Origin: Thiohalobacter thiocyanaticus
GTDB lineage: Bacteria; Pseudomonadota; Gammaproteobacteria; Thiohalobacterales; Thiohalobacteraceae
Assembly: GCF_002356355.1 (NCBI RefSeq)
Contig: NZ_AP018052.1
Coordinates: 62,001 to 126,000, forward strand
Length of the DNA: 64,000 bases
Direction of reading: 5' to 3'
Shown here: in pieces, positions 7,888 to 29,198 of the stretch
How positions within the stretch are numbered: position 1 is the first letter of the stretch
Layout of the letters: each line of letters starts with the position of its first letter
Made by a program: the position numbers and the translations under genes
Notes under the pieces: model-generated
Database searches by the model: none
Told to the model about the DNA's origin: nothing
What the model saw: the letters and a program-made list of their open reading frames with translations, nothing else

Positions 7888-9500
7888 ACGCGGACGCCTC
7901 ACAGCCGGACACACCGCCCGATTACGTCGCCGCACTGGACCTCGACTGCGACCCCTTTCAGGACCGCCATGAGGCGCGCTTCTTTTATGCCGACCCGGCA
8001 CTGATGCAGCGCCTGGACCTGCTCCAGCACCTGACACGCTTCAGCGAGCAACTGCTGTATGTGCGTGCACCGGCGGGCGCCGGCAAGACCATGCTGCGGC
8101 AGCAGCTGCAGCTGCGGGCCGCCGAACACTGGCGCCTGTGCCAGCTCGACGGCGCAGCGGTGAACACAGCCGCCGAGCTCTATGTGCAACTCTCACACTG
8201 CTACCCCGATGCCGCCGCCGAGAACACCGAACACTTCGGCTCCGACCTGATCCACTACTGTCTCGGGCTGCAGCAGGTCGGACAGCTGGCCGTGCTGGTC
8301 ATCGACAACGCCGAGCGCCTGCCCGCACCCGTACTCGAGGCCCTGCTGGGACTGGCCCGCTCCCCTGCCGAAACCCTCAAGGCCCTGCGCATCCTGATCT
8401 TCGCCACGCCCGAGCTCGATCCGACCCTGCAGTCGCTCAGCCTGAAAAGCCCGGGCGAGTCGCTGGTGCACACCCTGGACCTGCCGCCCTTCGACGAGCA
8501 GCAGAGCGCGGCCTACCTGATGTACCAGCTGGCCATCGCCGGCTATTCCGGCGACAGCCCCTTCAGCGCGACCGAGGTGCGGGCCATGCACAAGACGGCT
8601 GACGGCCGCCCCGGCGAACTCAACCGCCTGGCGCACGAAACCCTGCTGGAACAGGGGCTGCAGCGCGCTGCTGCCCGGCGGCCGGCCGGCCCGTCCCGGT
8701 CGCGGCGCGGGCGCTGGCTCACCGGGTACGCCCTGCTCGCCGTCGCCGGCATCGCCATCGGTCTCTGGCAGCTCGACACCCGCGCGCCGGCGCTGCCGGG
8801 CCTGGAGGAACAGACCCTGCAGCTGCCACCGGCCAACCCGCTCGCCGCCGGCATGGACACCCCGGCTCCGGGTCCGGATCCCGCCACCCCGAGTCCGCCG
8901 GACACGGAATCCGTATCCGAACCCGCGGATCCGGCGCAGGTCCCTGCGGCCGGTGAGACAACGGCCCTGGAGGCCGAGCCATCCCCGGCAGTACCGGCGC
9001 CTTCCGTCGGGGAGACACCGGCCGAGGCACCAGCGGCGCCCGCCCCGGAAGCCGCTGAGCCCGCGCCACCAGCGCCCCCGGAGCAGGCGACAGCACCCGC
9101 GCCGGAACCCCCGGCTGCGCAGGCCGCCCCGGCGCAAACACAGACCGAGGCTGCACCCGCGGCCGCTGCCCGGACGCGCGCATCCACCGATACTGACACC
9201 ACGCCTGCACCGGACTGGCTGACCGACCAGCCCGCGGGCCACTACACCCTGCAGCTGCTGGGCGCCCGCGACCCGGAGACGGTCGAGCGCTTCCTCGCCC
9301 GCCATGGGGACGAGGCCGAACTGCACGCGATTCGCACCTGGCGCAAGGCTGCCGCCTGGCACATCGTGGTCACGGGAAGCTACCCGGATCGCGCCGCCGC
9401 CACGGCGGCCCGCGAGGCCCTGCCCGCAGCGCTGCGCCAACTCCAGCCCTGGCCGCGGCGCTTCGATCAGATCCGCGCGGAACTGCCCCCGGACGAGTGA
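7884..9500 (+). CDS. damX: DamX-like AAA/SPOR-domain cell division protein
   Basis: 538 residues from a TTG start overlapping the previous stop (TTGA). The N-terminal part is an ExeA/AAA-type ATPase with Walker [11 protein letters not shown] (about residue 57) and Walker [12 protein letters not shown] membrane segment lies at about 277-295. A long Pro/Ala/Glu linker covers about 300-440, and a C-terminal SPOR domain covers about 458-535. SPOR domains bind denuded septal peptidoglycan. Position between aroB and gltB is the usual damX site, though E. coli DamX differs in its N-terminal domain. Confidence 0.85.
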
Positions 9501-9556
9501 GGCGCCGGCCGGATTCCCCGCGCCACCGCGTCCGCCCATCCCTGCTCAATGTCGGT

Positions 9557-9585
9557 TTGAACCGCCTGATCGGCGGCGCTATACT
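9557..9585 (+). promoter_or_regulatory. Likely gltBD sigma-70 promoter
   Basis: TTGAAC (9557-9562) and TATACT (9580-9585) are separated by 17 bases, with four of six and five of six consensus matches. They lie about 155 bases before the gltB ATG in a 240-base gap after damX. The spacing makes this the best promoter in the region, but no start site is known. Confidence 0.6.
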
Positions 9586-9741
9586 TGCCGACCGCTCGGG
9601 GTTTGCCTATCGAATCAGGGCACAGGCAGACCCGTGTCCACGGATCCTGGCCCGCGTCGCTCACCCCAATCCAGAGCGATGCGGGCTTACCCCGCCGCGG
9701 TCATTCCACAGTCTTCGAATTGGATTGAGAGAGGTTCTGAC

Positions 9742-14376
<4,635 letters not shown>

Positions 14377-14380
14377 GTCT

Positions 14381-15832
<1,452 letters not shown>

Positions 15833-25445: not shown

Positions 25446-26522
25446 ATGGCAACCCCCACATCAGTCGCGCGCTACACCTGCATCCTTGCCGGCTGGCTGA
25501 CCGCCGCTGCTGCCCACGCCTTTCCCACCGATCTTGACCAGTGCCTGCTCGAACAGTTGAAGACCGCGCCTGACGAAGCCACCGTGGCCGAGCTCAAGGC
25601 CGTCTGCCTGGAGTCGCTCCTGCCGCTGACCGGGCAGGGGCCGGATACGCCGGCTGCCGCGACGGCCGCACCGTCGCCCGCCGCCGGGGAAAAGGCCGCC
25701 GCCGAATCGCACACCTCCCCGCTGGAGACCCGCATCACCCTGGAGCGCGCCACGGCGGCGAACCCCTTCGTCATCACGCCGCACCGGCCCAACTACCTGC
25801 TGCCGGCCACCTACAGCTTCTCGCCCAACAGTGATCCCTTCGACATCAGTTCGGGCGAACTGCAGAAGTGGGAGATCAAGTTCCAACTCAGCTTCAAGTT
25901 CCCCCTGGTCCGCGGCCTGTTCAATGACCGCGGCACCCTGTTCATGGCCTATACCAACCAGTCCTACTGGCAGGCCTACAACCGCAAGTTCTCCTCGCCC
26001 TTCCGCGAGACCAATCACGAGCCCGAGCTGTTCCTGACCTACCTGCCGGATTATTCGCTGCTGGGCTTCGATGCCCGCGTCCTTCAGTTCGGCGTTTCGC
26101 ACCAGTCCAACGGCCAGAGCAACGAGCTCTCACGCAGCTGGAACCGCGTCTACGCCGATCTGGTATTCGAGCGCGGCAACTTCGCCTTCAGCCTCAAACC
26201 CTGGTACCGCATCCCGGAACAGAAGAAGAGCAGCCCGACCGATGCCACCGGTGACGACAACCCCGACATCGAGGACTACATGGGCTACGGCGAATTCCGC
26301 CTCGCCTACAAGCTGGACGGCCATTCCCTGAGCCTGATGCTGCGCAGCAATCTCAGCCGCAGCGATCCGCGCGGGGCGCTCGAACTGGGCTGGTCCTTCC
26401 CCCTGACCCGCAAGCTCAAGGGCTACGCCCAGTACTTCGACGGCTACGGCGAGAGCCTGATCGACTACGATGCCCACATCCGCCGCATCGGCATCGGCAT
26501 CGCGCTGACCGACTGGTTGTAG
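25446..26522 (+). CDS. pldA: Outer membrane phospholipase A
   Basis: 358 residues with a signal peptide, an acidic/Ala linker and a 12-strand barrel domain (from about residue 100). The catalytic His and Ser lie in VSHQSNGQSN, and the conserved YTNQSYWQAYN and FRETNHEPE motifs precede it. OMPLA is a calcium-dependent outer membrane lipase activated by dimerisation when lipid asymmetry is lost. It follows the pnt terminator and probably has its own promoter. The N-terminal region before the barrel is longer than in E. coli PldA. Confidence 0.92.
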   Translation: MATPTSVARYTCILAGWLTAAAAHAFPTDLDQCLLEQLKTAPDEATVAELKAVCLESLLPLTGQGPDTPAAATAAPSPAAGEKAAAESHTSPLETRITLERATAANPFVITPHRPNYLLPATYSFSPNSDPFDISSGELQKWEIKFQLSFKFPLVRGLFNDRGTLFMAYTNQSYWQAYNRKFSSPFRETNHEPELFLTYLPDYSLLGFDARVLQFGVSHQSNGQSNELSRSWNRVYADLVFERGNFAFSLKPWYRIPEQKKSSPTDATGDDNPDIEDYMGYGEFRLAYKLDGHSLSLMLRSNLSRSDPRGALELGWSFPLTRKLKGYAQYFDGYGESLIDYDAHIRRIGIGIALTDWL

Positions 26523-26993
26523 ACTGGCTGTTAGCCCGCCACCGGCCGGATATGATGCGCTAACCCCGAGTACACGCCCGGCGGAGCGCCGGTTTATAAC
26601 CGGGTTATACACCGGTCGGCCTCGCCCCCGGAGGGCACGCAAAAGGAACAGGGATCAGCGGTGATTTCAAGCTTGATTTTTCTTTCCCGCCCGGTTTATA
26701 CACAAGCTGCAAGCAAACCCGACCCTTTCGCGTCAGACGCCCGTCGCCACTCCGGCCCAACGGCGGGATTTTTACAACACACTGTTTTATAACAATAAAA
26801 ATCACTGGTGACAAAATGAGCAAATTAACACAAATGCAACAAATACAGGCCCTGGACCCCTTTAGCCCCATTCGTTCCACAAAGTTATCCACAGTTTTTG
26901 TGGATAAGGAAAATACCGCTTCCAGATTAGCCGGTTAACACCGTTTTGTGACAATCAGAGTCAAGTAACTGCGATAACCGCCTGGACAATCCA
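26523..26993. other. AT-rich gap with DnaA boxes before priA
   Basis: The 471 non-coding bases differ from the rest of the window. Positions about 26766-26845 are only about one quarter G+C by hand count. There are two perfect TTATCCACA boxes in inverted orientation (26885-26893 and 26899-26907), one perfect TTATACACA (26696-26704), a near match TTATACACC (26605-26613), and a 15-base palindrome TATAACC-G-GGTTATA (26595-26609). They could form a DnaA-controlled promoter for priA or an origin-like site. Confidence 0.6.
26885..26907. promoter_or_regulatory. Inverted pair of perfect DnaA boxes
   Basis: TTATCCACA at 26885-26893 and its exact inverse TGTGGATAA at 26899-26907, separated by five bases. 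Both match the strong DnaA box consensus. The pair is about 87 bases before the priA start. As RNA it could also form a nine-base stem with a short loop, but no U-tract follows. Confidence 0.65.
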
Positions 26994-29198
26994 TTGCCCA
27001 CAACATCCACACCCATCTACGCCAGGGTGGCCCTGCCCTGCCCCCTGTACCGGGTCTTCGATTACCGCCTGGCGCAGCCCGGCCGCATCGCCCCCGGCAG
27101 CCGGGTGCGGGTCCCGTTCGGCCGCCGCAATCTGGTCGGCGTGGTGGTTGAACTCAGTCCCGACACGGAGTTGCCCCCGGCGCAGATCCGGCCCCTGTCC
27201 GAATTGCTCGATGCCCAGCCGGTCGTCCCGCCCGACCTGCTGGCCCTGCTGCGCTGGGCCGCCGGCTATTACCACCATCCGATCGGGGAGGTCCTGGCCC
27301 AGGCCCTGCCGGCCCTGCTGCGTCAGGGACGGCCCGCCCGGATCGAACAGACCCGCCACTGGCAACTGAGCGCTGCGGGCCGGGCGGTGGATCCCGCCGA
27401 CCTGGCCCGGGCGCCGCGCCAGGCCGCCCTGCTCAGCGTCCTGGCCCGCTGCCCGGAGGGCGCCGACCGCGACCGGCTGCAGCGTGAGGGTCTGTACCGG
27501 CGCGACAGCCTCAGGGCCCTGGTCGACAAGGGTTGGGTGGAGGAACGCCTGGAGACGCCGGGACTGGATACCCCGGGTGCGGGTGCCGCAGCCCCGTCAC
27601 TCAACCCCGCCCAGGCCGACGCCGTCCAGGCCGTGGCGGAGCACGCCGGCTTCGGCTGCTTCCTGCTCGACGGAGTGACCGGCAGCGGCAAAACCGAAGT
27701 CTATATCCGCGCCATCGAACAGGCCCTGGCGGCCGGCCGCCAGACCCTGCTGCTGGTACCCGAGATCGGCCTGACTCCGCAGCTGATGCAGCGGCTGCGG
27801 GCGCGGCTGGCAGCACCCATGGTGATCCTGCATTCGGGGCTGAGCGAGCGCGAGCGCCTCAATGCCTGGGTGGCGGCGCGCGACGGCGCTGCGCGGATCG
27901 TGGTCGGCACCCGCTCGGCCGTGTTCACCCCGCTGCCGGCGCCGGGGCTGTTCATTGTGGACGAGGAACACGACCCCTCGCTCAAGCAGCAGGACGGGTT
28001 TCGCTACTCGGCCCGCGACCTGTTGATCTGGCGCGCCCGGCAGCAGGACGTTCCCGTCCTGCTGGGTTCGGCCACGCCTTCGCTGGAAAGCCTCTACAAC
28101 GCCGATCAGGGACGCTATCAGCGCCTGCATCTGCCGAACCGCGCCGGCGCCGCCAGCGCGCCCGAACTCAAGCTGCTGGACATCCGCGGCCAGCCGCTGC
28201 GCGAGGGACTGGCCGAACCGCTGCTGGGCGCCATGCGCCGGCACCTGGCGCGCGGCGAACAGGTGCTGCTGTTTCTCAACCGGCGCGGGTTCGCCCCGAC
28301 ACTGATCTGCCATGAGTGCGGCTGGGTGGCGACCTGCCGGCGCTGCGACAGCCACCTCACCCTGCACCAGCGCCGCGGCCGGCTGCACTGCCATCACTGC
28401 GACGCCAGCCAGGAGGTGCCGGTGCAGTGCCCCGAGTGCGGCAGTCCGGATCTGCGCGGCCTGGGCTACGGCACCGAGCGCATCGAGCAGACCCTGCAGC
28501 AGCTGTTCCCCGACCATCCCTGTCTGCGCATCGACCGCGACAGCACCCGGCGCAAGGGCCAACTCGAGGCCCTGCTGGAACAGGCCCACAGCGGCGCGGC
28601 GCGCATCCTGCTCGGCACCCAGATGCTGGCCAAGGGCCATCATTTTCCCGGCGTGACCCTGGTCGGCATCCTGGAGGCCGACCAGCGCCTGTTCTCCAGC
28701 GACTTCCGCGCCAGCGAACGCCTGGCCCAGCTGATCGTCCAGGTCGCCGGCCGCGCCGGGCGGGCCGAACGGCCGGGCACGGTGCTGATCCAGACCCACC
28801 ACCCGGACCACCCGCTGCTGCGGCGGCTGGTCACCGAGGGCTACGCCGCCTTCGCCGCGGCGGCCCTGGCCGAACGCCGGGACACCGGCCTGCCGCCCTA
28901 TGCCAGCCTGGCCCTGCTGCGGGCCGAGGCCACCGACCGCGAAGCGCCGCGGGAATTTCTGGAACAGGCCCATGCCCTGGCGCTGCAGCAGTCGGGCCCG
29001 GAGATCGAGTTCTGGGGTCCGGTGCCGGCGCCGATGGAAAAACGCGCCGGCCGCTACCGGGCCCAGCTGCTGGTGCAGTCCGCGGCGCGGGCCGCCCTGC
29101 ACCGGCTGCTCGATGCCTGGATCCCGGTCCTGGCCGAGTCGCCCGCGGCCCGGCGCATCCGCTGGTCGGTGGACGTGGACCCGGTGGATACCTTTTAG
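26994..29198 (+). CDS. priA: Primosomal protein N' (replication restart helicase)
   Basis: 734 residues from a TTG start. The N-terminal DNA-binding domain (about 1-200) precedes a helicase core with Walker [12 protein letters not shown] and the DEEHD box. The zinc-binding insert is complete (CHECG, CRRCD, CHHCD, CPECG). PriA recognises stalled forks and loads the replicative helicase. ATG starts are absent near the conserved N-terminus, so TTG 26994 is taken. DnaA boxes lie in front of it. Confidence 0.95.

Follow-up and report, generated by a model that had tools for sequence, protein, structure and literature searches.

What is known of the function of DARS, the DnaA reactivation sites, comes from E. 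coli: a DARS promotes the release of ADP from ADP-DnaA, and its loss lowers ATP-DnaA and initiation. DARS1 lies at 17.5 min and DARS2 at 64.0 min on the map of that species (PMC4585315), and the available portions of three papers describe both as having a DnaA box I whose orientation is the reverse of that of boxes II and III, spaced alike in DARS1 and DARS2, and as releasing ADP through head-to-head contact of the DnaA molecules on boxes I and II (PMC5742627, PMC8682772, PMC10380432). DARS1 is reported to be 101 bp long with minimal accessory regions (PMC5742627, PMC8682772), and the opposite activity, a stimulation of ATP hydrolysis, has been reported for datA (PMC10950094, PMC10380432). Sequences resembling DARS1 and DARS2 are stated to be conserved in many proteobacterial species (PMC10380432), and DARS2 in the relatives of E. 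coli (PMC4245941, PMC8682772). DARS as such are known; what appears to be new in the element described here is its order of core, Fis-like site (+86), IHF-like site (+120) and distal DnaA box (+203) and its linkage to priA, which we did not meet in the open-access literature, as far as the partial texts available reach.

The window analysed here is a 64 kb stretch of DNA (positions 62001-126000 of contig C1, a single-contig chromosome of 3,233,441 bases), and the element lies in a gap of 471 bases (88.5-89.0 kb on the chromosome) between a phospholipase A-like gene (25446..26522, plus strand; NCBIfam NF008031, 249.5 bits, under the cut-off of 369) and priA, which codes for primosomal protein N', the replication restart helicase (26994..29198, plus strand; NCBIfam NF004067, 1039.6 bits, exceeding the cut-off of 763). 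The initial annotation had placed the gap at 26523-26993 and had described an AT-rich segment and three perfect DnaA boxes within it, all of which our results bear out, the flanking open reading frame ending at 26522 and priA starting at 26994. The G+C content is 65.6% in the window, 51.4% in the gap, 41.6% at 26761-26993 and 30.3% at 26765-26840, and every perfect match to TTATNCACA in the 64 kb falls within the gap (26696-26704 and 26885-26893 on the plus strand, 26899-26907 on the minus strand). Shuffling gives an expectation of 0.28 perfect boxes per window, and a count of three was never reached in 100 shuffles; the DnaA boxes in the gap are real and far above chance. The near match that had been noted beside them is also present (TTATACACC, 26605-26613). 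It is missing at the corresponding place in a relative whose PriA is 95% identical (G009) and, judging by this comparison, probably does not belong to the element; it was rejected as such. An inverted repeat of 13 bp (26589-26615; 92% complementary, 1-bp loop) contains this near match and sits directly past the phospholipase A-like gene.

When the gap is read on the minus strand, which we use as the DARS orientation, it presents a three-box core. Box I (TTATCCACA, 26899..26907, minus strand) is a perfect consensus match and defines offset 0, in plus sense. Box II (TTATCCACA, 26885..26893, plus strand) follows at +14, inverted relative to box I and separated from it by a 5-bp spacer, and a degenerate box III (CGTTCCACA, 26873..26881, plus strand, two mismatches to TTWTNCACA) stands at +26, in minus sense like box II. 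Scanning of the DARS1 (bioD-uvrB) and DARS2 (rppH-mutH) intervals of E. coli K-12 returned the core at exactly 0/+14/+26 in both, box I being inverted in DARS1 as it is here. The core scan gave one match in the window (26907, minus strand) and one at a second locus near 444 kb, with no match in the other 39 sampled stretches of the genome and none in six simulated windows. The arrangement by which a DARS is recognised, a box I opposite to boxes II and III at the spacing of DARS1 and DARS2, was thus found in both the window copy and the second copy, and the window copy also has the setting of a DARS, a non-coding interval (between the phospholipase A-like gene and priA) away from oriC, 116 kb from dnaA and from the GC-skew switch. 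Taken as a whole, the gap is best explained as a DARS-type element, a reading to which we assign a probability of roughly 0.8, and its DARS function would follow by analogy with the work in E. coli. Since many related bacteria share this layout, the element is probably a conserved replication-timing switch rather than a replication origin.

Three further sites follow the core: a Fis-like site at +86 (GCTCATTTTGTCACC in DARS orientation, 26807..26821, one of six informative positions off), an IHF-like site at +120 (AAACAGTGTGTTG, 26775..26787, minus strand, two mismatches to WATCAANNNNTTR) and, at +203, the perfect distal DnaA box A (TTATACACA, 26696..26704, plus strand), oriented as boxes II and III. 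The weaknesses of the window copy are box III and the IHF-like site, with two mismatches each. DARS2 has the same core geometry, IHF and Fis sites and a perfect distal DnaA box, but there the core is followed by IHF-like sites (+93 and +109), a Fis-like site (+145) and a distal box on the opposite strand (+211), so that relative to DARS2 the Fis and IHF sites have changed places in the element described here and the distal box is flipped. The offsets +93 and +109 agree with the 3 bp that separate the IHF sites of DARS2 in the published account, as far as its available text goes (PMC4245941). DARS1 differs from our element in that its distal box lies 20 bp further out and in that the K-12 copy has no Fis-like match at +86. 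The distal box of DARS1 (TTATCCCCA) stands at +223/+224 in six of six sequences, K-12 and five members of family f172, which appears to be enteric, and has the orientation seen in the layout beside priA; at +121 there is an IHF-like site, with at most one mismatch in four of these five relatives and two mismatches in the remaining one and in K-12 (L092). The accessible descriptions of DARS1 mention neither the IHF-like site at +121 nor the box at +223.

Comparison of the gap in relatives, a check proposed with the initial annotation, showed that the inverted pair with its 5-bp spacer is present in all 11 genomes sampled from the order, with one pair just before priA in each. When spacers of 0 to 30 were allowed in 37 relatives, pairs were found in 21 of them, 32 pairs having a spacer of 5, and the sole other match (spacer 17) joins boxes III and I within one of the spacer-5 elements. 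At up to two mismatches, the core was detected in 228 of the 274 class genomes sampled and is absent from the other 46, with no match for the reversed-pattern control; 123 of 369 genomes and 93 of 272 genera have core and distal box together, both exact, again with none in the control. A sample of the phylum gave the core in 139 of 249 genomes; counted by hand, these comprise 58 of the 67 that belong to the class and 81 of the 182 that do not, and the core therefore reaches beyond the class.

DARS2 requires its IHF and Fis sites. The Fis and IHF sites of our element, which are consensus matches only, are locked in position in those elements of the class where the distal box is present, and much less so in other families. 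Among 18 elements of the order, the distal box lies at +202..+205 in every one, a Fis-like match with at most one mismatch lies at exactly +86 in 14, and an IHF consensus match at the same threshold lies at +120/+121 in eight. In 30 class elements, pre-selected by a search for core and distal box, Fis-like matches with at most one mismatch number 24 at +86, where the average over all offsets is 0.43, and IHF matches at the same threshold number 19 at +119..+121, with two others on that strand and nine dispersed over the opposite one. At one step, two of 30 loci fell outside a length condition. Of 150 class elements among the matches listed, 136 have the distal box within +200..+207, where anything from +187 to +217 was allowed. 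A further set of 17 priA-side elements served for IHF and Fis offsets that had been derived elsewhere, their DnaA boxes having partly been seen beforehand; it leaves out L071, L072, L084 and L093, which belong to the order of the window, and L154, with two weak matches 3' of the priA start. In this set, with at most one mismatch allowed throughout, the distal box lies at +200..+207 in 14 elements, IHF at +120/+121 in 13 and Fis at +86 in eight (the histogram shows three at +85), and the Fis position is held only weakly outside the discovery sets, less well than that of IHF.

Twenty elements from other families, hand-picked from those that look enteric, Vibrio-like or Pseudomonas-like, matched less often, with the distal box at +200..+207 in one and, at up to one mismatch, IHF at +119..+121 in seven and Fis at +86 in six; the full layout is therefore characteristic of much of the class but does not extend to all its members. 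Two elements of family f160 have the distal box at +192 and +194 and IHF at +120 and +121, and two of family f173 show no more than a box with one mismatch at +186. The distal-box positions +192, +203 and +223 may reflect helical turns. The element is probably a DARS of distinct layout, one that is fixed in the order of the window and widespread in its class.

The second copy came from a whole-genome list of DnaA boxes, which holds 30 sites (12 in the reversed control) and includes, at 444214-444425, a mirror-image cluster whose spacings are identical to those in the window. Alignment of the two copies places their longest shared runs on the boxes. The IHF-like site is degenerate in the window copy and perfect in the 444 kb copy, while the Fis match has one mismatch in the former and two in the latter. 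The second copy sits between convergent nosL-like and dsbB-like genes and is therefore not a promoter site for either of them. A second pair was found in seven of the 11 genomes of the order, beside a gene for a two-domain ABC ATPase in four of the seven (G001, G004, G005 and G006) and with dsbB as a neighbour in G000 and G010, G009 having been outside the neighbour search. In G004 a sigma-70 gene lies on the side opposite the ABC ATPase gene. Near the second copy of our genome (L023, ~9040-15575), a 619-aa open reading frame at 13716-15575 resembles a sigma-70 factor, as judged from the list of open reading frames. The strength of the IHF site was considered as a rule that separates priA copies from second copies, and was dropped, as only the three genomes that belong to the window's genus follow it.

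The position directly before priA raises the alternative that the boxes form a DnaA operator, which would repress or activate transcription of priA and so couple replication restart to initiation. The element ends 86 bp from the priA start codon, box I is on the priA side in all 11 genomes of the order, and priA lies alongside the element in 12 of the 30 class loci. Second copies, however, stand elsewhere in seven of the 11 genomes, in ours between convergent genes, and a core within 1,200 bases upstream was found in only 10 of 80 named priA loci, among them those of Methylomonas, Methylovulum and Candidatus Methylobacter; the 70 loci with none in that range (five of the 80 contigs end sooner) include nine titled Pseudomonas and three titled Acinetobacter. 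A simple operator also needs no fixed positions for IHF, Fis and a distal box, and a scan of 26450-27050 for sigma-70-like promoters gave no match, which weighs little; 0.6 are expected in shuffles. Because second copies lie away from priA and most named priA loci have no core, we consider it unlikely that control of priA is the main role of the element. The link between DnaA and priA that the initial annotation had found worth attention holds as gene order, in 11 of 11 genomes of the order. The boxes form a DARS core and are best not read as control of priA by DnaA, although they could have some effect on priA transcription. The adjacency to priA seems to be of old standing and need not imply that priA is regulated. 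Two tandem copies of the element, on the minus strand and both before priA, were observed in G015 (L069), and tandem copies also occur at G242:C209:4937 and 5317.

Somewhat less likely still is a datA-like element, in which boxes around an IHF bend would stimulate the hydrolysis of DnaA-bound ATP, or would titrate DnaA. In E. coli datA, as here, DnaA boxes flank an IHF site, and datA read in reverse (L190, 1745-1927) has a similar strand topology, with an inverted pair, an IHF site on the same strand and a distal box in the same orientation. The distances differ: the pair is 12 apart in datA and 14 here, and from the second box of the pair the IHF site and the distal box lie at 93 and 162 in datA as against 106 and 189 in our element. 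The distance to dnaA is 116 kb for the priA copy and 239 kb for the second copy, or 7% and 15% of an arm, whereas DARS1 and DARS2 of E. coli lie 66% and 41% along the arm. Both copies are nearer to dnaA than DARS1 and DARS2 of E. coli are to oriC, which speaks slightly against a simple equivalence with these and is a datA-like location. Against such an element, the scan of E. coli datA for the DARS core gave no match, and the box layout of datA around its one IHF site does not recur here, the topology being similar and the offsets different.

An origin of replication, oriC, is found at the switch of GC skew and usually close to dnaA. The perfect boxes and the AT-rich stretch could be taken for oriC or for a second origin, a proposal that the initial annotation had raised and itself doubted, naming the skew, the place of dnaA and the state of the gap in relatives among the checks. 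The doubt was justified. GC skew, calculated from 858 kb of the chromosome sampled in 20-kb stretches, window included, stays negative through the gap and up to ~186 kb and is positive from there to ~1.8 Mb, apart from one near-zero negative stretch at 380 kb. The switch, at ~186-206 kb, is beside dnaA (204529-205857, that is, at 204.5 kb), which has four perfect boxes of its own around it (204376-205981), and the gap is 116 kb inside the left arm, with neither the switch nor dnaA. The sampled skew and the position of dnaA rule the gap out as oriC, and an origin of either kind is very improbable. An origin elsewhere together with boxes that are not conserved in related genomes was to refute the initial reading; the origin is indeed elsewhere, and the boxes are conserved in relatives. 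Least credible of all is a chance cluster of boxes that has no function, for which it could be said that one of the four boxes first named (26605) is missing at its place in G009, and against which the spacing is fixed in many families, diverged relatives included, and the reversed-pattern controls are empty.

In keeping with a DARS-type element, the genome has dnaA, hda, fis (above the cut-off) and four matches to the IHF/HU family. DnaA is identical to that of E. coli at 314 of 444 aligned residues, among them both Asp269 and Leu290 (E. coli numbering), of which the former is reported as needed for DARS1 and the latter for DARS2 in the part of the source available (PMC5742627). Because the same source describes Leu290 as highly conserved among DnaA proteins, the retention of the two residues is weak evidence. 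By analogy with E. coli, ADP-DnaA would bind the core, and the AAA+ domains of the two DnaA molecules on boxes I and II would come into head-to-head contact, upon which ADP would leave; the apo-DnaA released could then take up ATP, so that initiation-competent DnaA is regained. IHF and Fis would bend the DNA and fold the distal box back onto the core, and such bending may tie the activity of the element to growth phase and cell cycle. In DARS2, ATP-DnaA that assembles from box V is reported to displace Fis and to switch the site off (PMC8682772). The distal box might act in the same way, with accumulating ATP-DnaA shutting the element off, or it might help assembly. The 444 kb copy, with its perfect IHF consensus, may work alongside the priA-side copy.

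A layout that keeps its register across many families points to candidate essential parts, namely the spacer of 5, the IHF site at about +120, the Fis-like site at +86 and the distal box at about +203. It also predicts further functional parts of E. coli DARS1, offers a handle for locating DnaA reactivation sites beyond the close relatives of E. coli, and raises the question of a common origin of DARS and datA. In this regard, it is conceivable, though doubtful, that the ancestral DARS of the class was a four-part loop before priA (core, Fis at +86, IHF at +120 and a distal box at about +203, in helical register) and that DARS1 (IHF-like site at +121, distal box at +223), DARS2 (IHF and Fis exchanged, distal box on the opposite strand) and possibly datA (the topology without the core) are its rearranged descendants. 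We give this reading a lower weight because only one of the 20 elements from other families fits +200..+207. If it were true, a single DNA layout would serve both to activate and to inactivate DnaA, and DARS1 of E. coli would also be an IHF-dependent loop.

The positions of the core along whole chromosomes were also compared. In 22 chromosomes with two core places, none of the 44 places lies within 30 kb of dnaA. One DARS on each replication arm is not claimed as a general rule: the two places lie on opposite arms in 16 of 23 chromosomes, with a binomial p of 0.047 for cases that are not independent. These 23 were chosen for having two core places on contig C1 and include E. coli and three members of the window's family; three of the chromosome lengths used were rounded, and the dnaA of G075 is a broken match under the cut-off. 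The window's family is represented by three complete genomes, and in each of them the two copies are oriented away from dnaA.
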